Assembly (NCBI RefSeq): GCF_030269305.1
Contig: NZ_BSTC01000001.1
Location: forward strand, 1,067,467-1,131,466
Source of the DNA: Kineosporia sp. NBRC 101731
GTDB taxonomy: Bacteria > Actinomycetota > Actinomycetes > Actinomycetales > Kineosporiaceae
DNA length: 64,000 nucleotides
Direction: 5' to 3'
Shown: piece by piece, positions 7,046 through 21,162 of the stretch
Layout of the letters: the number at the start of each line of letters is the position of its first letter
Position numbering within the stretch: the stretch's first letter is position 1
Program-made: the position numbers and the translations under genes
The notes under the pieces: model-generated
Databases searched by the model: none
The model's input: the letters and a program-made list of their open reading frames with translations, nothing else
Told to the model about the DNA's origin: nothing

Positions 7046-9724
7046 CTACGGCTTCTCCGAGCGCAGCCGAAGTTCACGCGGCATGCGCAGGGTGAGCAGG
7101 TTGGTCACGTCCTGGGCCGACATCGGCCGGGCGATCGCACTGCCCTGCACGGCGTCGGCCCCGATCTGCCGCGCGCCCTCCAGCTGCTGGGCGGTCTGGA
7201 CCGACTCGCAGATCACCTGGAGCCCCAGGGAGTGGCACAGCCGGGCCACGGCCCGGGGCACGTCGTCGCCCTCGCCGAACTCGTTCAGCTCCGGAGCCAG
7301 CCGTCCGTCCAGCTTCACCGCGCTGATCGGCAGCCGCCGCAGCATGGTCAGCGAGGTCCCGCCACAGCCGAAGTCGCCCAGTGCCACGAAGATCCGCAGT
7401 GAGCGCAGCATGCCCAGGGTCCGCAGAGCCTGTTCCGACTCCACCAGCTCGCCCGCGCCGACCTGGAGCACCAGGGACGAGGCGGCCAGCCCCCGGATGG
7501 CCAGCTGGGCCGCCACCTCGTGGGCGAAGTCGGGGTCTTCGAGCTGGGCGGGGGAGAGGCTGACCCAGACCTGATCGATGTTGATGCCCTCGTGCCGCCA
7601 GATCACCAGGGCGGCCAGGGCCCGGTTGATGGTCTGCAGGCCGAGCGTGACCCCCAGGCCGAGGTCGTCGGCCAGCGGCACGAAGGTGGACGCGGTCACG
7701 GTGACGCCGTCCTGCCGCCGCCAGCGCGGCAGAGCCTGCGCACCGGCGATCCGGTCGTCGTCGTCCGTCCCGCGGCCGAGGGCGAGCATGGGCTGGAAGT
7801 CGACCTCGATCAGGCCCATCCGCACCGCGTGCCGCAGTTCCTGTTCCAGGCCGGCCCGCATCAGGCTCTGGGCGCGTAGGGCGGTGTCGAACATGGCCCA
7901 GCGGCCGCGGCCCCGGCCCCGGGCCGTGCGCACGGCCTCGTCGGCCGCCTGCAACAGGTCGTCGGCGGTGGTCAGGCCCGGGGTGGTGGTCAGGCCGCCG
8001 GCGGAGATCGGGCCGGGCGAGGTGATCGGGTCGGGTCCGGAGACGGCCCCACCGAGCGAGCACGTCAGGCTGAACTCGCGGGCCCCGGCGAGAACCGGCT
8101 CGTCCAGCAGACGGCTGATCACCCGGGCCACGTCGGCGCAGGTGTCGGCGTTCGGTGGGAGCAGGTCGTCGCTGAGCATCACGGCGAACTGCTGCCGGGA
8201 CACCCGGGCCACCAGAGCGTCCGGGAAGTGCCCGGCGATCCGGCCGCCCACCTGCCCGGCCAGTTCGTCGGCCGTACCCGCGCCCAGGCTGTCGGCCAGG
8301 TCGTCGAACCGGTCCACCTCGGCGAGTACCAGGCCGACGGGCCGACGGTTCTGAGGGGCGAGGGAGAGGGCGAGCGCCCCGAGCAGGCCGTCACGGTTCG
8401 GGAGGCCGGTGGCCGGGTCGAGGGACGACGATGCGGCGAGCACGGCGGCCCGGGCCCAGGCCTGGCGCTCGCCGGCCCGGGCGGCGCCGGCTGCCCGGGT
8501 GAGGCGGCGGCGGGCGGCGGTGGCGGTGATCCCGACCAGGGCGGCGACGAGTACGCCCGAGCCCAGCGCGATCTGGATGCCGACGACGGGGTGGTCCTGC
8601 GGGTCGGCCAGCAGACGCGCGATCCGGGCCGGGCCGTCGATCAGGGTGCGGCCGGTCAGGGCGCCGGTCAGGGCGATCACGCCGAGTGCGGTGACGGTCC
8701 AGCCCGCCACCGGGCCGACCAGCAGCGGGTAGGAGGCCACGGTGGTCAGGGCGATCACCAGCGACACCGGGGTCAGGGCGGGTTGGAGCACGGGCAGCGC
8801 GGCCGCGACCCCCAGCAGGGCGGTGGCGCGCAGCACCCGGGCTGCGGTGAATCCCGGCAGCAGCAGGGCCATCAGGCCGGCGAGGGGCAGGACCGAGAGA
8901 GTCAGCCAGACCGGGGGCGGCGCGGCGACGGCCCAGGCGGTGGCCGAGGCGATCAGCGACAGCACCAGGGTGAGCAGGGCTTCCGGCATCCGGCGGGGTT
9001 CGGTGGGGGATGCGGGCGACGGGACGGCCGGCTCGGGGACCGGGTTGAGAGTGGTGCGGGTGAGGACCCGGAGGTCTTCCGACGGTGCTCTCGACGGCTC
9101 CTGCGACGGCTCCTGCGACGGCGACGGCGACGGCGACTGCGACGGCGACTGCGGCGACGACTGCGGCGACGACTGCGGCGGCTGCGCCGGCTGGGGGTGG
9201 CGGATCAGCTTCGGTCCGTCGGACAGGTCGATCGCCATCGGTGTGGGCATTTCCCACTCGGCGGTGTCGCGCTCCTCCTCCTCCTCGTCGGTGCCCCGGT
9301 CCTGCGGTGTGTCCAGGGCATCCGCCGGGTTCGGCGGGTGGGCCGCCGACCTGGGCCACGGGATACCGCTTCCGGCGCGCGGGTCGGCGGGCCGGCTGAC
9401 CCCGAACGTCAGGGTGTCGAAACCGCACTCGCCGGCGCGGGAGACCTGGTCGCGCAACGGGTTGGCGACGGCCATCGGTGGGGTCAGCAGCTTGGGCTGC
9501 TCGACCGGTGCGGTGGCCGCGTCCCGCCGGGTGCGACGGTGGGCCAGCCGGGTGCGCATGCGTCCGGGCCGTCGTCTCCAGCGTCCGCCGGTGCCGGGGC
9601 GCCCGGGCCGGTCGGGCCGGTCGGGCCGGTCGGGCCGGTCGACACCGAAACCACCGGCGGGCAGTGCCGTCCGGTCGTTGCGGCCCGTGGGCTCGCCGCC
9701 GCTGTTGGCCCCGAGAAGCGTCAT
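7046..9724 (-). CDS. membrane protein with degenerate GGDEF and EAL domains
   Basis: The 892-residue protein probably senses or transmits c-di-GMP signals rather than making or breaking the nucleotide. Residues 1-240 are disordered, with DRPDRP repeats near the start and a Ser/Pro/Gln run near residues 185-215. About six membrane segments follow at roughly 250-410. A GGDEF-like domain (about 430-610) has SRQQF in place of GGDEF. An EAL-like domain (about 625-885) reads AQAL for the EAL motif, LGDFGCGG for the DDFGTG block and CESVQ for AEGIE, so metal-binding residues are missing. A GGGGGA ribosome binding site supports ATG 9724. It is convergent with the PLDc_N gene, with a 3-base gap. Confidence 0.88.
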   Translation of the reverse strand: MTLLGANSGGEPTGRNDRTALPAGGFGVDRPDRPDRPDRPGRPGTGGRWRRRPGRMRTRLAHRRTRRDAATAPVEQPKLLTPPMAVANPLRDQVSRAGECGFDTLTFGVSRPADPRAGSGIPWPRSAAHPPNPADALDTPQDRGTDEEEEERDTAEWEMPTPMAIDLSDGPKLIRHPQPAQPPQSSPQSSPQSPSQSPSPSPSQEPSQEPSRAPSEDLRVLTRTTLNPVPEPAVPSPASPTEPRRMPEALLTLVLSLIASATAWAVAAPPPVWLTLSVLPLAGLMALLLPGFTAARVLRATALLGVAAALPVLQPALTPVSLVIALTTVASYPLLVGPVAGWTVTALGVIALTGALTGRTLIDGPARIARLLADPQDHPVVGIQIALGSGVLVAALVGITATAARRRLTRAAGAARAGERQAWARAAVLAASSSLDPATGLPNRDGLLGALALSLAPQNRRPVGLVLAEVDRFDDLADSLGAGTADELAGQVGGRIAGHFPDALVARVSRQQFAVMLSDDLLPPNADTCADVARVISRLLDEPVLAGAREFSLTCSLGGAVSGPDPITSPGPISAGGLTTTPGLTTADDLLQAADEAVRTARGRGRGRWAMFDTALRAQSLMRAGLEQELRHAVRMGLIEVDFQPMLALGRGTDDDDRIAGAQALPRWRRQDGVTVTASTFVPLADDLGLGVTLGLQTINRALAALVIWRHEGINIDQVWVSLSPAQLEDPDFAHEVAAQLAIRGLAASSLVLQVGAGELVESEQALRTLGMLRSLRIFVALGDFGCGGTSLTMLRRLPISAVKLDGRLAPELNEFGEGDDVPRAVARLCHSLGLQVICESVQTAQQLEGARQIGADAVQGSAIARPMSAQDVTNLLTLRMPRELRLRSEKP
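9605..9640 (-). repeat. four 9-bp tandem units at N-terminus
   Basis: Four identical GGGCCGGTC units on the plus strand encode Asp-Arg-Pro repeats near residues 29-40 of the degenerate GGDEF/EAL protein. Confidence 0.9.
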
Positions 9725-12395: not shown

Positions 12396-13721
12396 GTGCA
12401 TTCCGTGGAACAGGCGTTGGCAGCTATCAGCCGCGCCGAACCCGAGGTGGCCGAGGACGCTCGGGCGGCTTGGGAATCGCTGACCGGGGGTGACGGCCCC
12501 GAATCGGTGACGCAGTGGCGGCTCCAGCAGTTCTGCTGGGACGAGCTGAACCGGGCCTGGATGTCGGACGGTCAGGGCCGGTGGCGGGTTGCCACGGCGC
12601 TCTCCGCCCTGCTCGACGGCCTGGGCATGCAGCGCTACGCCGGTATCGCGCGCAGCGACACCACGCGTCAGATTCTCTTCACCGGTGATCAGGCCCCCGA
12701 CCGGGGCCGCACCGTGGTGCGCCGGGCCATGCAGCGCTCGGGCATCGAGCCGCCCGACACCGAGCTGCTCACCTGGGGCGCGATCATGGGCACGGCCGAG
12801 GCACAGGCCCGCGAGGCGGTGGCCGACCGGCTGGAACTGGCGGTCGCGGTCGGCGACCTGCAGCCCGGCACCCGGGGCTGGCGTGATCTGCAGGCCGAGA
12901 TCACCCTCAACGTTCTGCTCTCGCCGCGGATGGACCTCTCCGGTGAGGCCCTGTACGACCAGATCCTCGACGAGCGTCTCGACGACTGGATCCGGGGCCC
13001 GCGCTCGACCACCCGCGGTGGTCTGCTCGCCCCGCTGGAGACCAGCCTGCGCGAGAACGTCGACCCGGGCATGGCCGCGCCCGCCCGGGCCCTGCTGCGC
13101 CCCCTCGACTGGCTGCTCACCGAGATCGGCGACGGCCTGGCCCTGACCGCGGCCGGCTACCTGCCGCCGCGCACGGTCTCCCGCGCCCTCGACGAACTGG
13201 GCTGGCGCGACGAGCTGATCGGCCCCGCCAACCGCGAGGTCGACGCCTACCCGGTGCTGGTGCTCCGTGAGACCGCCCAGCGTCTGGGCCTGTGCCGGCG
13301 CCGCGCCTCCCGTCTCACCCTGACCCCGAGCGGCCGGGCCGCGCTCGCCGACGGCCGCACGCTGTGGCAGGCCGTGGCCGCCGGTCTGGTCGGCCCCGAG
13401 CACTCCGCCCTGGCCGTGGCCTGGGAGGTCGTGCTGGCCGTGCTCGCCCCGGGCGACGTGGTCGGTGAGGAAGACGTGCGCACCCTGGTGCAGGCCGTCA
13501 TCACCGAGTCGGGCTGGCGGGTGGCCGGGCGCCGCACGCCGAGCGAGTCCGACACCAGCGCGCTGTTCTTCGCGGTGCTGCGGGAGCTGCGCTGGATGGA
13601 ACTCGTCGAGGAGTCCGGCGCGCTGCTGGACCGGCAGCTGCGGGCACGGGCGGGTGCGGCCGACCTGTTCCGGGCCGCGCTGCGACACCGGGTGCTGCAC
13701 CGCGACATCGTCCCCTTCTAG
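12396..13721 (+). CDS. unrecognised 441-aa helical protein
   Basis: I do not recognise this protein firmly. It is mostly helical with no membrane segment, signal peptide or catalytic motif I can name. The section at about residues 245-320 (LTAAGYLPPRTVSRALDELG, then ALRETAQ-type and LTLTPSGRAALADG phrases) resembles a helical module sometimes fused to pRiA4b ORF-3-like proteins in actinobacteria and looks like a winged-helix arrangement. That similarity is from memory and weak. The GTG start at 12396 leaves 78 bases to the divergent menE start. Coding bias matches its neighbours. It ends 20 bases before a large inverted repeat. Confidence 0.7.
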   Translation: MHSVEQALAAISRAEPEVAEDARAAWESLTGGDGPESVTQWRLQQFCWDELNRAWMSDGQGRWRVATALSALLDGLGMQRYAGIARSDTTRQILFTGDQAPDRGRTVVRRAMQRSGIEPPDTELLTWGAIMGTAEAQAREAVADRLELAVAVGDLQPGTRGWRDLQAEITLNVLLSPRMDLSGEALYDQILDERLDDWIRGPRSTTRGGLLAPLETSLRENVDPGMAAPARALLRPLDWLLTEIGDGLALTAAGYLPPRTVSRALDELGWRDELIGPANREVDAYPVLVLRETAQRLGLCRRRASRLTLTPSGRAALADGRTLWQAVAAGLVGPEHSALAVAWEVVLAVLAPGDVVGEEDVRTLVQAVITESGWRVAGRRTPSESDTSALFFAVLRELRWMELVEESGALLDRQLRARAGAADLFRAALRHRVLHRDIVPF

Positions 13722-13740
13722 TGCGGCGACCACGAAGGCT

Positions 13741-13842
13741 GGCCACCTCCTCGTTCGTGATCAGGTAAACCTTCCCCGGGGAGGTGGGGGCACCTTCCGG
13801 CCGAAGGCTGGGGGATTGCCTGATCACGGTGAGTTGGTGGCC
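13741..13842. repeat. large imperfect inverted repeat
   Basis: Outer arms GGCCACC/GGTGGCC and inner arms CGTGATCAGG/CCTGATCACG are perfectly complementary and nest around a 53-base centre rich in CCTTCC and GGAGG. It lies in the gap between two convergent genes, so it may act as a bidirectional terminator. The GATC-containing arms resemble those of the 25935-25974 repeat. Confidence 0.65.
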
Positions 13843-13851
13843 ACCGCACCT

Positions 13852-13993
13852 GGGCGTGTGGGGGAAGTCCATGCCTCCTGCGGGGCACCCGGTGAGCCGT
13901 CATGACACGTCCGGCGTGGCCCCGGGGAGAACCACCACGAGCCGGCTCACCGGGCACCTCCGCAGCTCACGGCGTGATCCGCGGGACAGACCC
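13852..13993. mobile_element. MITE-like palindromic element, copy 1
   Basis: This 142-base element is closely related to the one at 63115-63279. The last 40 bases of the two are almost identical, and the first 47-base blocks align without gaps. Ends are GGGCGTGT on the left and GGGTCTGTCC (reverse strand) on the right, which resemble IS5-type termini. Internal arms around CTGCGGGGCACCCGG and CCGGGCACCTCCGCAG form a long hairpin. There is no coding capacity. The right edge abuts TA, and the TAG stop of the giant reverse-strand gene sits exactly at that edge. Confidence 0.7.
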
Positions 13994-16900
13994 TAGAATT
14001 TACTCAAGAACTCAGGAAGCTGTTCCGGCGGAAGCGGTCTGGCGAACCAGTAGCCCTGGCCGGTCTCACAGCCGATGTCGCGCAGCAGATCGGCCTGGGC
14101 CTCGCTCTCGATGCCCTCGGCGGTGGTCTGCAGCGAGAGGATCCGGGCCAGGTCGACCACGGTGCGCACGATCGCCAGGTCTTCGCCGACGGTCTCGATG
14201 TTGTCGATGAACGACTTGTCGATCTTCAGCTTGTCTACCGGGAAGCGTCGCAGGTAGGACAGCGACGAGTAGCCGGTGCCGAAGTCGTCGATCCCGACCT
14301 GCACCCCCAGCCGCCGCAGCTCGGACAGCTGCGCGGTGATGCCCTCCGGATCTTCCATCATCACCGTCTCGGTCAGTTCGAGCGTGAGGGCGGAGGCGGG
14401 CAGCCCGGTCTCGGCCAGCGTGCTGATCACGTGCTCGGGCAGCCCTCCGTCGGAGAGCTGACGGGCCGAGACGTTGATGTTGAGCCCCAGGTCGACGTGG
14501 GCGTGACGCCGCCAGGCGGCCACCTGACGGCAGCTGAGGGCCAGCACCCACCGGCCCATCTCGATCACCGAGCCGGTCTCCTCGGCGATCGGCACGAACA
14601 CGGCCGGCGAGATCATCCCGCGCTCGGGATGACGCCAGCGGATCAGCGTCTCCACCCCGAGCGGACGACGTGCGGCCAGGTCCATCAGCGGCTGGTAGAC
14701 CAGCTCGAACTGGCCCTCCGACAGGGCGCGGCGCAGGTCGCCCGCCAGCTCCAGCCGGTCGCGGGCGTCGGCCTGCATCTGCGGTTCGAACACCACCGCC
14801 CGCCGTGAGCCGGTCTTCTTCGCCCGGTACATCGCCAGGTCGGCTTGCCGGAGCAGCTCACCGGTCCCGGGCTGGGCCGGGTCGCCGTGGGCCACACCGA
14901 GACTGGCGGAGACGAAGAGGTCCCGCCCGGACAGTCGCACCGGCTGGGCCAGCGCCGCGGTGATCCGCTCGGCCGCCCGCAGGGCCGCACCCGGGCCGCG
15001 GGTGCCCTCCATCAGCACCGCGAACTCGTCACCGCCCAGCCGGGCCACGGTGTCGCTCTCCCGGATGCACTCACCCAGCCGCCGGGCCACCTCGGCCAGC
15101 AGCTCGTCGCCGGCGCTGTGCCCGAGGGTGTCGTTCACCGCCTTGAACCGGTCCAGGTCGATGAACAGCACGCTCACCTCGGAGATCTGGGCGTCGTGCC
15201 CGCCGTCGGCCGACAGGGCCTGCTGCAGCCGGTCCAGGAACAGCGAACGGTTGGCCAGACCGGTCAGCGAGTCGTACGACGCCTCGCGGATCGCCTCCAG
15301 CGTGCTGGCATCGTTCAGGGCCAGGCTGACCTGCTCGGCGAACGCTCCGAGCAGGTCCTGACGCCAGTCCTCGGGACCGAGCCGGTCGGCCGCGCTGGTC
15401 ACCAGACTGCCGATGATGCGGCCGCTGACGTGCACCGGGGCCGCGATCAGGGTGACGCTCTCCAACGCGCCGTCCAGCTCCGTGACCAGCTCGTTCGCCG
15501 CAATCGCGGCCTCGGCCATCCGCAGCACCGCCTCGTCGGTGTCGGTGCCGGACCGGTGCCCGCTCACCGAGGGGATGTTCGGCCGCCCGTCGCCCTCCGG
15601 GTCGCGCAGCACCAGGGCCACGAAGGCGCCCTCGAGCATGCCCGAAGCGCCCTCGGTGACGGAGTCCATCACCATCTGCAGCGGCACCCGGTGGGCAATG
15701 TCCCGCTGGATCGCCAGCAGGGTCTCCAGCAGGCGCTCGCGCTGTCGCACGGTCTCCAGCAGCCGTTCGCGCTGCTGCCCCTCGAGCTCGGTGTGCCGCC
15801 GGGCCAGGGCGTTCTCGAACGACACGGCCAGCTGACCGGCGATCAGCCGGACCGCGTCCAGCCGGGACGGCGAGAAGGCGTTGCTGTGCAGGTGGTTCTC
15901 CAGCACGAGCACCAGGCGGTTCTGCCCGCCGGAGCCGATCGGGACCACCATCAGTGCGCAGCAGCGCAGGTTGACCAGGTGCTCGTCGGCGCTGAAGCGG
16001 TCGTCGCGGGTGGCGTCGGCGACCAGCAGGGGTTCGCCCGTGCGCTCGGCGTACCGGAAGGCCGACACCGGAAAACCCTGGTCCGGCCCGGTCCGGCGGC
16101 CCGGCACGGTCCAGTCCCCGTCGGCGTCACGGATCAGGATCGTCACGTCGGTGGCCCCGGTCATCGCGGTGAGCACCTCGACCACCCGGGCGTGCAGCTG
16201 ATCGAACCCGGTCTCCCGGGCGACCGCCTGGGACGCCGACAGGACCGCGAGAAGGTCGACGGGGTCGCCGGTCTCGGGTACGACGACGGCGTCCACGGCG
16301 GACGGGTCGCGTTCGGGCAGGGCGGTGCGCAGATGGGGGTGGCGCCGGTGCAGCTGTTCCACCTTCGCGCTCGCCCCCCAGACCGCGTACGAGTCCCGGG
16401 CCAGGGTGAACATCGCCCGGGCGCCGTACGCGTGGCCGTGCGCCTCTCGGAACATCCCGGCGCGCTCCAGCACGGTGGCGCGGTGCCAGCCGCGGTTGGC
16501 CGGGGCGTGCAGGATCGCGTCGTCGAAATGCTTCATCGCGGCCGGCAGGTCGTCGTCGGCCCAGGCCACCTCGGCGTCGATCCAGGAGACCAGGTGGCCG
16601 AAGGTGGCGGGCAGGTCGGCGGCGCGAGCGGCCAGCCAGTCCCGGCCGGCCGCGAGCCGGTCGCGGGAACCGGGCCGGCGGGCCAGCGACAGGGTGTTCA
16701 GCAGGTGGGCCTGGGCCGCGGCGTAGGTGCTCTCCAGGAACACGAACGTCTCCATGACCCGGTCGATCTCGGACCGCAGGGTGGCGTCGTCACCCATCAC
16801 CGCGGCCCCGGTCGCCCGCAGCAGGTGCCGGTTCACCCGGGCGGCGGGCGTGGCCGGTTCCGGTGCCCGCACGACCTCTTGTCCCTGCAGCTCCTGCGCC

Positions 16901-19900
16901 AGCTCGCGGTAGCCCACGATCAGCTGCCGGGCCTGTTCGTTACTCATCCGGGAGGCCAGGGCCAGACCCTGGTCGGTGATCGCGAGCAGCCCGGTCAGGT
17001 TCGGGGTGAAGTCGAGCAGGCTGGAGCACAGCGTGCTGTAGCTGAACGCCGCCGACTGTGGTTCGCCGCCGCGCAGCAGCCCGGACTCGGCCTGCTGCAG
17101 GTCGGCGATCGCCGTCTCCAGCGGCTCGAACCAGGGCCGGGCGGTGGCGCCGCAGAGAAACCGGGCGTGCGAGGTCTCCGGCTCGTAACCTCGCTCGGCG
17201 CTGACCGTCAGGACCCGGCGCACCACGCGGTAGCCGGTGCGGAAGTCGCCGGCCCGGCCGATCGTCAGCAGGGCGGAGTGCGAGAGCGACTCCACCAGAC
17301 CCCGGAGCGGGCCGTGCTGCGCCCACATCTTCCAGCCGGCCAGGATCAACCAGCCGAGGAGGTCGTGGTCGGCGAAGTAGGCGGTGTGATTGAGACGCCG
17401 CAGCACATCGGCGCGGGCGAGGACGAGCGGGTCGTCCGTGGCCGGTCGGAGCCGGTCACCGGCCACGTCGTCGGCCTCGGCCCAGGCCGTGAATCCGGGT
17501 AGCCCGGCCTCGACGAGGCCGGGCAGCAGCTCCTTCGCCGGCACGTCCAGACCCAGCCGGGCCAGGTGCGAGCGGCCGAGGTCGATGGCCTCGGCCACCC
17601 GGTCCCGGTTGGTGAGGGCAGCGATCTGCAGGCACACCGACTCGTTCAGCCGCAGCGGGTCGTCGCAGCGCCGGCGTACCGATGCGAACAGCTCGTCCAT
17701 GACGTCGAGCCGCCCGAGCCCGTACAGGGTGGCGTGGCGTTCCAGGTCGAGCCGCAGCCGCAGCTCCTCGTCGGCGGGGTCGTGGCGGCCGGCCAGCAGG
17801 GTCTGCGCGGCGGCGTAGAACCGTTCCGCAGAGCCGGGGTTCGTCACCCGGATCGCCGAGCCCGCACGTTCCAACAGGTCGGCGGCCCGGCGTTGCTCGG
17901 CCGGATCGGTGAGTTCGGGCAGCGCGGCCACGTACTGGGCCGCGGCGGTGGTCAGGTGCCGGGGGTCGGACGAGAGGCGGTGCGCGACGGTGAGGTGCAG
18001 CATCAGTGCGGCCACGGCGCCGGGGCCGCCCAGCCGGTCGCGCACCAGCTGACGGCTGCGCTCGTGCCGGAACCGCACGGTGGCGTCACCCTCGGCCTCC
18101 CCGGTGGTGGTCACGATCAGGCCGTCGGCCAGGGCGGGCCCGAGCCGGTCGTCCAGCTCGGCCACCGACATGCCCGCCGCCGTGGCCAGCACCGTCAGCT
18201 CGCTCTTCTGCCCCAGCCCGGCCAGCACCTCGAGCACGGCCACCGTCTGGTCGGGCAGGCCGCGCAGCCGGGCGGCCAGCAGGTCGCCGCTCTCGCTGCC
18301 GACCAGCCGTCCGTTCACCGCGATGGTGTCCCAGGTCCAGCCGGACTCGCCGAGTCGCAGGGCACCGTCGGTGCGCAACGCGTTCAGCAGCTCGATCGTC
18401 TCGTACGGGTTGCCCCGGGTGCGGGCGCCGACCACGTCGGCCAGCCGGGCGGCCTCCCGGCGGTCCAGTCGCAGCATCTCGCCGAGCATCCCGGCCAGGT
18501 CGTCACGGCTGAGGTTCTCCAGGCGGACCGCCGGGGGCCAGAGCCCCAACTGGGTCCAGCGCGGTATCAGCATCCCGACGGAACCGGCCGGACCGGCCGG
18601 ACCGGCCGGACCCGTCGGACCGGGCGTCTCGTCGTCGCGGAAGACCCCCACGACCAGCAGCCCGTCGATGTCGTTGCCCGACAGCACCGCGTCGAGCAGA
18701 CCCAGCTGGAACGGGGTGGCCCACTGCAGCGAGTCCAGCACCATCACCATCGGCCGCTGTCGTGAGGCGGTGGCCCGCAGCACGTCGACGGCGCCCTGCC
18801 GGGCCCGGCTCTGGATCTCCAGCGGGTCGCCCAGCGGTGGGTCGCCGGTCACGCCGAGCACCGGTGCCAGGTCGGGCACCAGCCCGGCCATCAGGGAGGC
18901 GTTGCCGCCGAGCATGCGGCGCAGTCGCTGACGCTGCTCCAGCAGGGCGCTCTCCGGCTCTGCCAGCAGCAGCCGGCCCAGCGACCCCAGGGCCTCGACC
19001 ACCGCGTCCGACCGCAGGTCCGCCTCGGCCGCGTCGAAGGTGCCCGCGATGAACCAGCCGCCGGCCGCGGCGACGACGGGCCGGAGCTGATCGACCAGGG
19101 TGGTCTTGCCCACCCCGGCCCGCCCGGTGACCAGCAGACCGCCCGTGCCGCCGGCCCAGACCGTGGTGAAGGCCGACCGCAGACGGGCGATCTCGGTGTC
19201 CCGGGCGAACAGCCGGGCCGGGCCGGTGAGCTGGTGCGGGAAGTCGTGGTCGCCGAGCACGAACGGGCGGATCGTCGCCATCTGCCGCCCGGCGTGACCG
19301 CCACCGGCCGCGACCATCTCCTGGCGCAGCCGCTTCAGGTCGTGCAGCAACCCGGCCGCGCTCTGGTAGCGCCGGCCGGGCTCCTTCTCCAGCAGCTTCG
19401 CCACGATCTCCGAGAACGGGCGGGGACAGGCCGGGTTCATCATGTGCACGGGTGTGGGCAGCCGGGCCAGCTGGTCGCGCATCAGGCTCAGCGCGTCGCC
19501 CTCGCCCCGGCCGAACGGGGGCCGGCCGGTACACAGCTCGTAGAACACCACCCCGAGCGCGTAGAGGTCGGCCCGCTGGTCGACCGGCTGGGCGGTGCGG
19601 CCGGTCTGCTCAGGAGCCAGGTAGACCAGGCGGTCGATGATCGAGTTCGAGTGCGAGTAGCCCGGCTGCTCGCCGGAGAACAGCGTGGCGCGATCGAAGT
19701 TGACGATGATGGGCCGGTTCTGCGGAACGCTGAGCAGGATCACCTCGGGACTGAGATCGGTGTGCACCACGCCGCGCTCGTGGATCCGGGTGATCAGCGT
19801 GGCGAGGTCCACCGCGACGTCGACGAGGGCCGGCAGGTCGAGGTGCCAGTCGGGGGAGCGGGTGAGCTGACGCAGCGAGTTCCCCCGGAAGGCCCGCACC

Positions 19901-20178
19901 TGGTAGATCGGCCCGGTGACCTCGCCGACCAGCTGGGGCACGCCGTTGATGCCCCGCAATCGCTCCATCACCGCCGCCGAGTGCCGCGCGCGCAGGGAGG
20001 CGTTCGAGCCGTGCAGCTCCCGGCGGATCACGGCGTCCTCACCGGTGCCGATCCGGGTGACCCGGCCGTACCGGTCGTCGTACAGCAGCACCTCGCCCGG
20101 GGTCGGCCCGGTGGGCGCCCGCTGTTCCGGAACGGGTCCCTCGGCCCGGGTGTTGTTCCCCGGTTCTGTGTTCGTCAT
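13993..20178 (-). CDS. pseudokinase-ATPase-GAF-GAF-GGDEF-EAL signalling protein
   Basis: This is a 2061-residue multidomain signal protein. A kinase-like domain covers about residues 20-270. It keeps HxD (HTDLSPEVILL, near 136) and APEQTGR but lacks the metal-binding Asn (Val instead) and DFG (NFD), so it is probably a pseudokinase. An AAA-type ATPase follows, with Walker A GRAGVGKTT near 355 and Walker B MVMVLD near 480. A helical repeat stretch then leads to GAF domains near 1310 and 1500. The GGDEF (RLGGDEF, near 1716) and EAL (VETLIRW, near 1842, and DDFGTGYSS) domains look intact. ATG 20178 has GAGG upstream; a GTG at 20271 has none. The architecture resembles kinase/ATPase/GAF/histidine-kinase proteins with c-di-GMP domains replacing the kinase output. 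Confidence 0.9.
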   Translation of the reverse strand: MTNTEPGNNTRAEGPVPEQRAPTGPTPGEVLLYDDRYGRVTRIGTGEDAVIRRELHGSNASLRARHSAAVMERLRGINGVPQLVGEVTGPIYQVRAFRGNSLRQLTRSPDWHLDLPALVDVAVDLATLITRIHERGVVHTDLSPEVILLSVPQNRPIIVNFDRATLFSGEQPGYSHSNSIIDRLVYLAPEQTGRTAQPVDQRADLYALGVVFYELCTGRPPFGRGEGDALSLMRDQLARLPTPVHMMNPACPRPFSEIVAKLLEKEPGRRYQSAAGLLHDLKRLRQEMVAAGGGHAGRQMATIRPFVLGDHDFPHQLTGPARLFARDTEIARLRSAFTTVWAGGTGGLLVTGRAGVGKTTLVDQLRPVVAAAGGWFIAGTFDAAEADLRSDAVVEALGSLGRLLLAEPESALLEQRQRLRRMLGGNASLMAGLVPDLAPVLGVTGDPPLGDPLEIQSRARQGAVDVLRATASRQRPMVMVLDSLQWATPFQLGLLDAVLSGNDIDGLLVVGVFRDDETPGPTGPAGPAGPAGSVGMLIPRWTQLGLWPPAVRLENLSRDDLAGMLGEMLRLDRREAARLADVVGARTRGNPYETIELLNALRTDGALRLGESGWTWDTIAVNGRLVGSESGDLLAARLRGLPDQTVAVLEVLAGLGQKSELTVLATAAGMSVAELDDRLGPALADGLIVTTTGEAEGDATVRFRHERSRQLVRDRLGGPGAVAALMLHLTVAHRLSSDPRHLTTAAAQYVAALPELTDPAEQRRAADLLERAGSAIRVTNPGSAERFYAAAQTLLAGRHDPADEELRLRLDLERHATLYGLGRLDVMDELFASVRRRCDDPLRLNESVCLQIAALTNRDRVAEAIDLGRSHLARLGLDVPAKELLPGLVEAGLPGFTAWAEADDVAGDRLRPATDDPLVLARADVLRRLNHTAYFADHDLLGWLILAGWKMWAQHGPLRGLVESLSHSALLTIGRAGDFRTGYRVVRRVLTVSAERGYEPETSHARFLCGATARPWFEPLETAIADLQQAESGLLRGGEPQSAAFSYSTLCSSLLDFTPNLTGLLAITDQGLALASRMSNEQARQLIVGYRELAQELQGQEVVRAPEPATPAARVNRHLLRATGAAVMGDDATLRSEIDRVMETFVFLESTYAAAQAHLLNTLSLARRPGSRDRLAAGRDWLAARAADLPATFGHLVSWIDAEVAWADDDLPAAMKHFDDAILHAPANRGWHRATVLERAGMFREAHGHAYGARAMFTLARDSYAVWGASAKVEQLHRRHPHLRTALPERDPSAVDAVVVPETGDPVDLLAVLSASQAVARETGFDQLHARVVEVLTAMTGATDVTILIRDADGDWTVPGRRTGPDQGFPVSAFRYAERTGEPLLVADATRDDRFSADEHLVNLRCCALMVVPIGSGGQNRLVLVLENHLHSNAFSPSRLDAVRLIAGQLAVSFENALARRHTELEGQQRERLLETVRQRERLLETLLAIQRDIAHRVPLQMVMDSVTEGASGMLEGAFVALVLRDPEGDGRPNIPSVSGHRSGTDTDEAVLRMAEAAIAANELVTELDGALESVTLIAAPVHVSGRIIGSLVTSAADRLGPEDWRQDLLGAFAEQVSLALNDASTLEAIREASYDSLTGLANRSLFLDRLQQALSADGGHDAQISEVSVLFIDLDRFKAVNDTLGHSAGDELLAEVARRLGECIRESDTVARLGGDEFAVLMEGTRGPGAALRAAERITAALAQPVRLSGRDLFVSASLGVAHGDPAQPGTGELLRQADLAMYRAKKTGSRRAVVFEPQMQADARDRLELAGDLRRALSEGQFELVYQPLMDLAARRPLGVETLIRWRHPERGMISPAVFVPIAEETGSVIEMGRWVLALSCRQVAAWRRHAHVDLGLNINVSARQLSDGGLPEHVISTLAETGLPASALTLELTETVMMEDPEGITAQLSELRRLGVQVGIDDFGTGYSSLSYLRRFPVDKLKIDKSFIDNIETVGEDLAIVRTVVDLARILSLQTTAEGIESEAQADLLRDIGCETGQGYWFARPLPPEQLPEFLSKF
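18581..18625 (-). repeat. five 9-bp units in the giant gene
   Basis: Units of the GGACCGGCC type on the plus strand encode a short Gly-Pro-Ala collagen-like run after Walker B of the ATPase domain. The three central copies differ by at most one base. Confidence 0.85.
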
Positions 20179-20271
20179 CAGTCGTGCCTCGCAATCCCCG
20201 TCACCCAGAGATATCGGAGGCCCGACGGGCGTCTTGACGTCTCGATCCCCAGGCGCCGTAGGCTGGGTCAC

Positions 20272-21162
20272 ATGTTAGATGTGGATCGAACAGATGACAT
20301 CCCGCTGACCGCGCCCTACGGGGTCTGGCTGGGCCTCGGCCCGCAGGCGCTCGGGGCGTACGAGGGCAGGGAGGGCGAGTTCGCCGCCGAGCTGGAAGGT
20401 CTGGGCTGGCCGGCGCTGTGGGTGGGCGGGTCGTGGGGCGCCGACCTGGCGCCGATCGAGCGGCTGCTGGCCGGCAGCGAGAACCTGGTGGTCGGCACCT
20501 CGATCGCGAACATCTGGCGCGACCCGGCCGAGCAGGTCGCGGCCTCCTACACCCGGGTGGCGCAGCAGTTCGGGGGCCGGTTCGTGCTCGGCCTGGGGGT
20601 CGGCCACCATCCGCAGACCGAGCTGAACCAGGGGCAGTACGCGAAACCCCTGGCCAAGCTGGCGGCCTTCCTGGACGTGCTGGACACCGCCGATCCGCCG
20701 GTGCCGGCCGGTCACCGGGCGCTGGCCGCCCTCGGCCCGAAGGCGCTGGAGCTGGCCCGCGACCGCTCGGCCGGTGCGCTGCCCTACCTGACCACGCCCG
20801 AGCACACCCGGACCGCCCGGCAGGCGCTGGGCCCGGGCACGTTCCTGGCGCCGGAACAGAAGGTGGTGCTCAGTGACGACCCGGTGCAGGCCCGGGGCCT
20901 GGCCCGCACGGCGCTGAAGCCCTACCTGTCCCTGCCGAACTACGTGAACTCGTGGCTGCGCCTGGGCTTCGAGCCGGCCGACGTGGAGAACGGCGGCAGC
21001 GACCGGCTGATCGACGGCCTGTTCGGCTGGGGCCCCGACGCGCTCGAGCGTGTGCGGCAGCACCGTGAGGCCGGGGCCGATCACGTCTGCGTGCAGCCGG
21101 TCCCGGCTCCGGGGCGGCATGCCCTGGACGATCTGAAAATCATCGCCCGGGAACTGTTCTGA
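20272..21162 (+). CDS. LLM class F420-dependent oxidoreductase
   Basis: This is a 296-residue member of the luciferase-like monooxygenase superfamily, of the type that uses coenzyme F420 in actinobacteria. Family features are the N-terminal beta strand GVWLGLGP, VVGTSIANIWRDPAEQVAASYTRVAQ, the RFVLGLGVGHHPQ block and the C-terminal GADHVCVQPVP. The substrate is unknown. ATG 20272 lies 93 bases from the divergent giant gene. The ribosome binding site is weak, so the start is less certain. A 20-base perfect hairpin follows the stop by 9 bases. Confidence 0.9.
   Translation: MLDVDRTDDIPLTAPYGVWLGLGPQALGAYEGREGEFAAELEGLGWPALWVGGSWGADLAPIERLLAGSENLVVGTSIANIWRDPAEQVAASYTRVAQQFGGRFVLGLGVGHHPQTELNQGQYAKPLAKLAAFLDVLDTADPPVPAGHRALAALGPKALELARDRSAGALPYLTTPEHTRTARQALGPGTFLAPEQKVVLSDDPVQARGLARTALKPYLSLPNYVNSWLRLGFEPADVENGGSDRLIDGLFGWGPDALERVRQHREAGADHVCVQPVPAPGRHALDDLKIIARELF

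Follow-up and report, generated by a model that had tools for sequence, protein, structure and literature searches.

A 64,000-nucleotide stretch of the Kineosporia sp. NBRC 101731 genome (the window; whole assembly 8.26 Mb in 88 contigs) encodes a giant signaling protein of 2,061 residues. In it, a kinase module predicted to be non-catalytic is joined through a STAND-like nucleoside triphosphatase (NTPase) and a long helical region to two GAF domains and a GGDEF-EAL pair. Our preferred reading, to which we assign a probability a little above one half (about 0.55), is that a non-catalytic kinase platform and an Apaf-1/MalT-like nucleotide switch of the STAND type control the turnover of cyclic di-GMP (c-di-GMP). 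We established the anatomy, the residue losses, the selection acting on the gene, and the fold class from sequence or model. The Pfam domain order (Pkinase, AAA_16, two GAFs, GGDEF, and EAL, all above curated cut-offs) bore out the architecture proposed in an earlier, sequence-only reading of this DNA.

The putative pseudokinase module

We aligned the window protein with its four orthologs and 134 other relatives (139 rows). Four of five classical kinase residues have been lost in the window protein and all four orthologs: the β3 Lys is replaced by Arg (Lys in 115 of the 134 others), the αC Glu by Ser or Ala (Glu in 130/134, a gap in 4/134), the catalytic-loop Asn by Val or Thr (Asn in 119/134), and the DFG Asp by Asn (Asp in 124/134). 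Among readable rows, loss of the αC Glu is confined to these five sequences. The HxD Asp is retained in all five and in 116 of the 134 others, and Asp162 (DFG+2) is likewise kept in all five. The sequence-only reading had described the window kinase as keeping HxD (here HTD) and APEQTGR, with Val146 for Asn, NFD for DFG, and Arg53 for Lys, and each of these proved correct. Ser in place of the αC Glu, the absence of lysine from residues 36 to 117 of the window protein, and replacement of the second Walker B Asp by Ser (see below) are additional to that description.

WNK kinases have a shifted lysine. The β1-β3 stretch (residues 33 to 56) contains no lysine in any of the five sequences, which argues against a WNK-like shift here. 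Because a GxGxx[GAS] loop before β3 occurs in only 17 of the 139 rows, lacking this loop does not indicate decay. When compared with known structures, an AlphaFold2 model of residues 25 to 620 (39-sequence alignment; predicted local distance difference test score [pLDDT], 88.4) had PknB as its best solved match, with a template modeling (TM) score of ∼0.8 by target length in this fold-level comparison, in keeping with the kinase assigned from the letters. Based on the modeled kinase fold and the loss of the β3 Lys and DFG Asp in five of five sequences, all of which retain the HRD Asp, we classify the module as a putative pseudokinase. With the residues for phosphoryl transfer gone, it is predicted to be non-catalytic; this part of the sequence-only reading gains from the four shared losses, the lack of a β1-β3 lysine, and the purifying selection described below.

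The NTPase, helical region, and GGDEF-EAL output

The Walker A motif of the NTPase is intact, with Lys at position 358 in 137 of the 139 rows. Walker B reads LDS in the window protein and all four orthologs; the second position in the other 134 rows is Asp in 129 (of 133 readable), Gly in 2, Asn in 2, and a gap in 1. This Asp-to-Ser change at the second acidic position of Walker B is a new observation. The STAND Walker B motif has two acids (hhhhDD), and the second Walker B acid matters for hydrolysis in P-loop NTPases. Because that acid is lost, the NTPase may bind nucleotide yet hydrolyze it slowly or not at all.

Residues 511 to 1310 (800 residues) had no Pfam match up to an E value of 1. 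A model of residues 300 to 1310 (pLDDT, 86.7) contains a nucleotide-binding domain (NBD), helices, a winged-helix-like part at approximately residues 661 to 703 (read by eye from the model), and a long superhelix. Foldseek placed the TPR-sensor STAND protein 6mfv first and Apaf-1 next; CED-4 and 8bob, a maltose-system complex whose chain we take to be MalT, were also among the matches. The region thus has a Walker A NBD and, loosely and by model, a winged helix followed by a superhelix, and it lacks the two-acid Walker B. We therefore describe the NTPase part as STAND-like by modeled fold, with one Walker B feature missing.

The best match of the GGDEF-EAL pair in the PDB was “Motility regulator” 4rnh (E = 6.5e-121), presumably MorA, and the alignment to it shows both the GGDEF and the EAL motifs. 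All five sequences carry the I-site RxxD together with the EAL motifs. Both domains have complete active-site motifs, as the sequence-only reading had held, and both are predicted to be active enzymes. No HisKA/HATPase output was matched by Pfam anywhere in the 2,061 residues, and a separate Pfam run on residues 1311 to 1630 again returned two GAF stretches. The GAF2-GGDEF-EAL portion is close to stand-alone proteins of the same family with the Pfam architecture GAF-GGDEF-EAL (L043, 51%; L050, 49%; lengths of 766 and 782 residues; tree group support, 96), which suggests that the gene arose when a kinase-STAND-GAF head became fused to a protein of this kind.

A second GGDEF-EAL pair is encoded at window positions 7046 to 9724 (minus strand) in an 892-residue protein with a hydrophobic middle. 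By eye, its motifs seem degenerate (VSRQQF for GGDEF, QAL for EAL, and GDFGCGGTS for DDFGTGYSS), and it is likely an inactive c-di-GMP protein, located 4 kb from the intact one.

Features of the giant signaling gene and its protein, with positions in the window.
Feature	Window positions	Strand	Residues	Basis	Bits
Whole gene, 2,061 residues	13993..20178	-		open frame from ATG at 20178 to stop (stop included)	
Pseudokinase N-lobe	19855..20073	-	36-108	model, PknB fold match, no lysine in window protein	
Arg53 replacing β3 Lys	20020..20022	-	53	alignment	
Ser67 replacing αC Glu	19978..19980	-	67	alignment	
Pseudokinase C-lobe	19324..19854	-	109-285	Pfam PF00069, PknB match, pN/pS	
Catalytic loop H139-T-D-L-S-P-E-V146 (Asp kept, Asn replaced)	19741..19764	-	139-146	alignment	
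N160-F-D replacing DFG	19693..19701	-	160-162	alignment	
NTPase domain (AAA_16; STAND-like)	18649..19218	-	321-510	Pfam, fold match	
Walker A GRAGVGKT	19102..19125	-	352-359	alignment	
Walker B VMVLDSL, second Asp to Ser483	18727..18747	-	478-484	alignment	
Helical domain (winged-helix-like part and all-helical superhelix)	16249..18648	-	511-1310	model, no Pfam match	
GAF1 (Pfam best stretch 1330-1453)	15784..16248	-	1311-1465	Pfam	
GAF2 (borders inferred)	15304..15783	-	1466-1625	common to stand-alone GAF-GGDEF-EAL proteins	
GGDEF domain (GGDEF 1715-1719; I-site RESD 1706-1709)	14803..15282	-	1633-1792	Pfam, alignment	
EAL domain (EAL triplet E-T-L; catalytic motifs present)	14035..14739	-	1814-2048	Pfam, alignment	
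Pfam match Pkinase			118-276	Pfam PF00069	60
Pfam match AAA_16			322-509	Pfam	80
Pfam match GAF (two stretches)			best 1330-1453	Pfam	62
Pfam match GGDEF			1633-1792	Pfam	153
Pfam match EAL			1814-2048	Pfam	250

An in-frame GTG at 20271 is a possible alternative start that would add 31 codons.

Relatives, selection, and gene neighborhood

Full-length orthologs with 76 to 80% identity are present in four of the five other Kineosporia genomes searched (the exception is G007), so the gene is neither a chance frame nor a sequencing artifact. One genome (G006) carries a second copy, L041 (G006:C2), with 2,105 residues, 47% identity, and the same architecture. Its kinase losses differ: L041 has HRC for HRD, Thr for Asn, and no β3 Lys, and it keeps the DFG Asp (as DFT), the αC Glu, and a normal Walker B. 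The same domain order recurs in the four orthologs and L041, and a variant with GAF-PAS is found in L090 (4-6153, a Micromonosporaceae metagenome-assembled genome), which reads pseudokinase-AAA_16-GAF-PAS-GGDEF-EAL with HGNL for HRDL and GFG for DFG. Across 149 evenly drawn genomes of the order, with the best two candidates per genome scored, seven genomes gave a match to the full-length query at E ≤ 1e-140; in six of them, all from the same family, the match covers the head, and in the seventh it covers only the tail.

We estimated constraint from the ratio of nonsynonymous to synonymous polymorphism (pN/pS) among the window gene and its four orthologs. By this measure only EAL (0.223) is more constrained than the kinase C-lobe (0.277); next come the linker after the kinase (0.336), the AAA domain and GGDEF (0.370 each), the GAFs (0.451 and 0.386), the N-lobe (0.499), and the helical part (0.554). 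By plain identity, GGDEF reaches 85.4% and the C-lobe 83.6%. The low C-lobe ratio argues for strong purifying selection on a lobe kept for function, with a weaker case for the nucleotide cleft.

To place the protein in a wider family, we collected 165 loci, yielding 139 proteins that are not a random sample. Eighty loci were the best of a longer scan, and others came from same-family genomes. The remainder were drawn from the family to which L090 belongs, where 30 of 101 genomes matched at 1e-150, and from the class, where 9 of 197 genomes matched at 1e-120. Output classes were assigned by a script that used profile matches for GGDEF and EAL and motifs for histidine kinases; Pfam searches of L090, L041, L100, L034, L078, L059, and L060 agreed with these classes. 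Outputs were GGDEF alone in 87 proteins, a NarX-like histidine kinase in 16, another histidine kinase in 11, GGDEF-EAL in 7, and other or short in 11, with 7 cut by a contig end. The sequence-only reading had supposed that such proteins usually end in a histidine kinase; in this non-random collection GGDEF alone is the commonest output (87/139, versus 27/139 for histidine kinases), and that claim does not hold for these relatives.

A quick tree, with some long branches, was built from the NTPase and helical region of 123 rows, excluding the kinase; the 7 cut rows, 7 of the 11 other or short rows, L059, and L060 were dropped. On this tree the GGDEF-EAL output requires two changes and hence had two origins. 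One comprises the Kineosporia proteins and L041 (Shimodaira-Hasegawa-like approximate likelihood ratio test [SH-aLRT], 100), and the other is L090, which sits beside three histidine-kinase proteins with decayed kinases (group support, 100). The GGDEF-EAL part of L090 was placed elsewhere on a separate GGDEF-EAL tree, on a long branch; the positions of L037, L046, and L147 on that tree were not used.

We scored the five kinase residues in 121 rows, after dropping L152 and L154 for their cut N termini. At least two residues were lost in 16 of the 121 rows, requiring at least seven changes on the tree, and kinase decay is therefore recurrent in the family. By output, such loss was found in 7/7 GGDEF-EAL, 5/11 histidine kinase, 4/83 GGDEF-only, 0/16 NarX-like, and 0/4 other rows. 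The decay is specific, because 79 of the 83 GGDEF-only relatives lost at most one of the five residues. Both GGDEF-EAL origins lie within lineages with decayed kinases, which is suggestive only. A statistical link between kinase loss and GGDEF-EAL was considered and rejected, since all seven rows agree but represent two origins, with which a paired test cannot reach significance. Paired comparisons on the tree likewise gave no signal when kinase loss was compared with departure from a GGDEF-only output.

The gene lies between a convergent gene for a 441-residue protein of no known family and a divergent luciferase-like oxidoreductase gene, beyond which are AMP-binding and enoyl-CoA hydratase genes (by Pfam), presumably menE-like and menB-like. 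The gene order is the same at L065 and L068. The 441-residue protein (window positions 12396 to 13721, plus strand; no Pfam match) has at least 97% amino acid identity to its counterparts in four other Kineosporia genomes (99.8 to 100% for G007). The genes adjoining it are only 71 to 83% identical, and the menB-like gene is 91 to 92% identical. Third codon positions of the 441-residue gene differ by 15 to 23%, which points to extreme selection on the protein.

Proposed mechanism, rival explanations, and known systems

In the mechanism that we favor, the pseudokinase would act as a docking platform, perhaps one that binds nucleotide weakly. Along with whatever partner or ligand occupies the superhelix, it would set the NTPase closed or open; opening would allow the GAF-GAF stalk to align two GGDEF-EAL units, and this alignment would shift the balance of c-di-GMP synthesis versus breakdown. 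With the second Walker B Asp gone, the switch might reset slowly, staying in its ATP state until turned off by something else. We infer the nucleotide-gated opening, the docking of the pseudokinase, the transmission through the GAFs, and the effect on c-di-GMP; control of c-di-GMP turnover by the kinase part is a prediction. A more ambitious version, which we offer tentatively and consider doubtful, holds that both nucleotide modules are former enzymes that now serve for binding (the pseudokinase being metal-blind and the STAND module loading ATP but hardly hydrolyzing it), making a slow-resetting, NLR-like c-di-GMP switch. In this version, loss of kinase catalysis would also come before, or make possible, the replacement of a cyclase-only output by one with both cyclase and phosphodiesterase, a step taken at least twice (in Kineosporia and in a Micromonosporaceae lineage).

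Several observations weigh against the favored mechanism. The relatively high N-lobe pN/pS (0.50) is compatible with a platform formed by the C-lobe and not with strict nucleotide binding, and single residues can be judged only weakly from five sequences of a single genus. Over its full length, the model matches STAND structures loosely (TMq, ∼0.3). The sequence-only reading had spoken of an ATPase switch; the connection of the NTPase and superhelix to GGDEF-EAL stands, and the hydrolysis that the term implies is weakened by the lost Walker B acid. In addition, the gene may be dispensable in G007, since the assembly of that genome (L223, G007:C34) lacks the equivalent of positions ∼13722 to 20778, comprising the whole gene and most of the luciferase-like oxidoreductase gene, although the flanks on the two sides of the missing stretch are 94.9% and 92.6% identical. 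No match to the head was found in G007 at E ≤ 1e-100.

The missing gene in G007 would also suit the idea that the kinase-NTPase head is a decaying remnant and that the protein acts simply as a GAF-GAF-GGDEF-EAL enzyme, as would the alteration of both the kinase and Walker B and the closeness of the tail to the ∼770-residue stand-alone proteins. We consider this unlikely: the C-lobe, with the identity given above, is under stricter constraint than the GAFs, and no internal stop interrupts the head in any of the five sequences or in the 47% identical L041. Conversely, the purifying selection could reflect an unorthodox kinase that is still active, in which Arg53 and Asp162 (of NFD) replace the Lys-Glu pair and Asp141 transfers phosphate or another group, as in the POMK and SelO exceptions. 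Retention of the HxD and DFG+2 Asp residues in all five sequences is compatible with this, and an Arg-to-second-Asp bridge has been modeled in DYD pseudokinases, where it could allow ATP binding, in the relevant part of PMC12599244. By analogy, Arg53 with Asp162 could still permit ATP binding here, a further point against the platform we propose. Catalysis nonetheless appears decidedly unlikely to us, because both metal-ligand positions (146 and 160) and the αC Glu are changed in all five sequences and no β1-β3 lysine is available. We rejected Asp162 as a specific compensation, since several relatives with otherwise intact Lys, Glu, and Asp also carry Asp there.

Two further possibilities concern what the protein responds to. 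It might be a plain nucleotide or metabolic sensor, its pseudokinase and GAFs binding small molecules and its NTPase serving as an energy gauge for c-di-GMP in the zoospore cycle. Zoospore-forming actinobacteria are described as rich in GGDEF proteins in a section of PMC10746217, which also cites a paper on Kineosporia zoospores, but the zoospore link is only taxonomic, and we judge this quite unlikely. An NLR-like defense protein that responds to phage by changing a cyclic dinucleotide would fit the resemblance of the STAND architecture to Apaf-1 and NLRs. This proposal is far-fetched, and we rejected it because the PADLOC matches listed (25 of 31) all run through the kinase stretch, within residues 64 to 378, to the kinase-containing models PD-T4-6, mad6, C3a189, and MkoA; moreover, the neighboring genes examined are metabolic or of no known family and are syntenic in two relatives. 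If the favored reading of a pseudokinase platform with a STAND-type switch is true, STAND switches, known from immunity and transcription, would be tied to second-messenger turnover. The output is an assayable enzyme pair, and relatives with intact kinases and a same-genus genome without the gene are available for comparison, so the role of dead kinases in giant proteins could be tested by measuring c-di-GMP.

Among characterized STAND proteins, the TPR-containing 6mfv, Apaf-1, CED-4, and MalT share the modeled NBD, winged-helix-like part, and superhelix; unlike them, the window protein has an N-terminal pseudokinase, a c-di-GMP output, and a lost second Walker B acid. The tandem GGDEF-EAL with catalytic motifs resembles 4rnh, 5m3c (which we take to be RbdA), and DosP, whose input domains differ from pseudokinase-STAND-GAF. 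The same genome encodes two more giant Pkinase-AAA_16-GAF-GGDEF proteins (L059 and L060, on contigs C11 and C10 of G000). These share the order of the window protein and differ from it in having HRDLKPxN and DFG intact, a single GAF according to Pfam, GGEEF, and no EAL; recent duplication was rejected, as identity over the kinase is only 34%. The HstK/cbSTKIII dual kinases of Anabaena, as portrayed in the pertinent sections of PMC2176072 and PMC1262709, also combine a Ser/Thr kinase and GAF in one large protein, and their output is HisKA/HATPase in place of GGDEF-EAL. A Clostridium thermocellum protein of 1,826 residues likewise joins a kinase, helical repeats (six TPRs), and GGDEF, and neither an EAL nor a loss of kinase residues is mentioned for it in the section of PMC1262709 that describes it.

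The terms “protein kinase,” “STAND,” and “ATPase” are absent from a review of c-di-GMP enzyme inputs (PMC8846402), and among the open-license papers listed in our searches, none has a title describing a kinase-NTPase-GGDEF-EAL combination. The closest described family is CP1, presented in a 2025 review (PMC12599244), the relevant sections of which report that bacterial pseudokinases are largely without experimental work and that the role of the Leptospira CP1 pseudokinases is almost unstudied. According to the same sections, CP1 comprises Ser/Thr kinases and pseudokinases from bacteria, chiefly cyanobacteria and proteobacteria, all linked to the COG3899 predicted ATPase; they often carry GAF or PAS, and ∼40% have degraded catalytic motifs. 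GGDEF and EAL have no occurrences in the main text of PMC12599244, and its CP1-relevant sections make no mention of a Walker B change. Like CP1 proteins, the window protein has an N-terminal kinase fold, an adjoining NTPase, a downstream GAF, and degraded motifs (β3 Lys, Asn, and DFG Asp replaced). With respect to the COG3899 link, the candidate is its AAA_16 NTPase, which adjoins the kinase and models as STAND. We conclude that this protein is a new combination inside an already described family, probably the kinase-ATPase-GAF pseudokinases of CP1.

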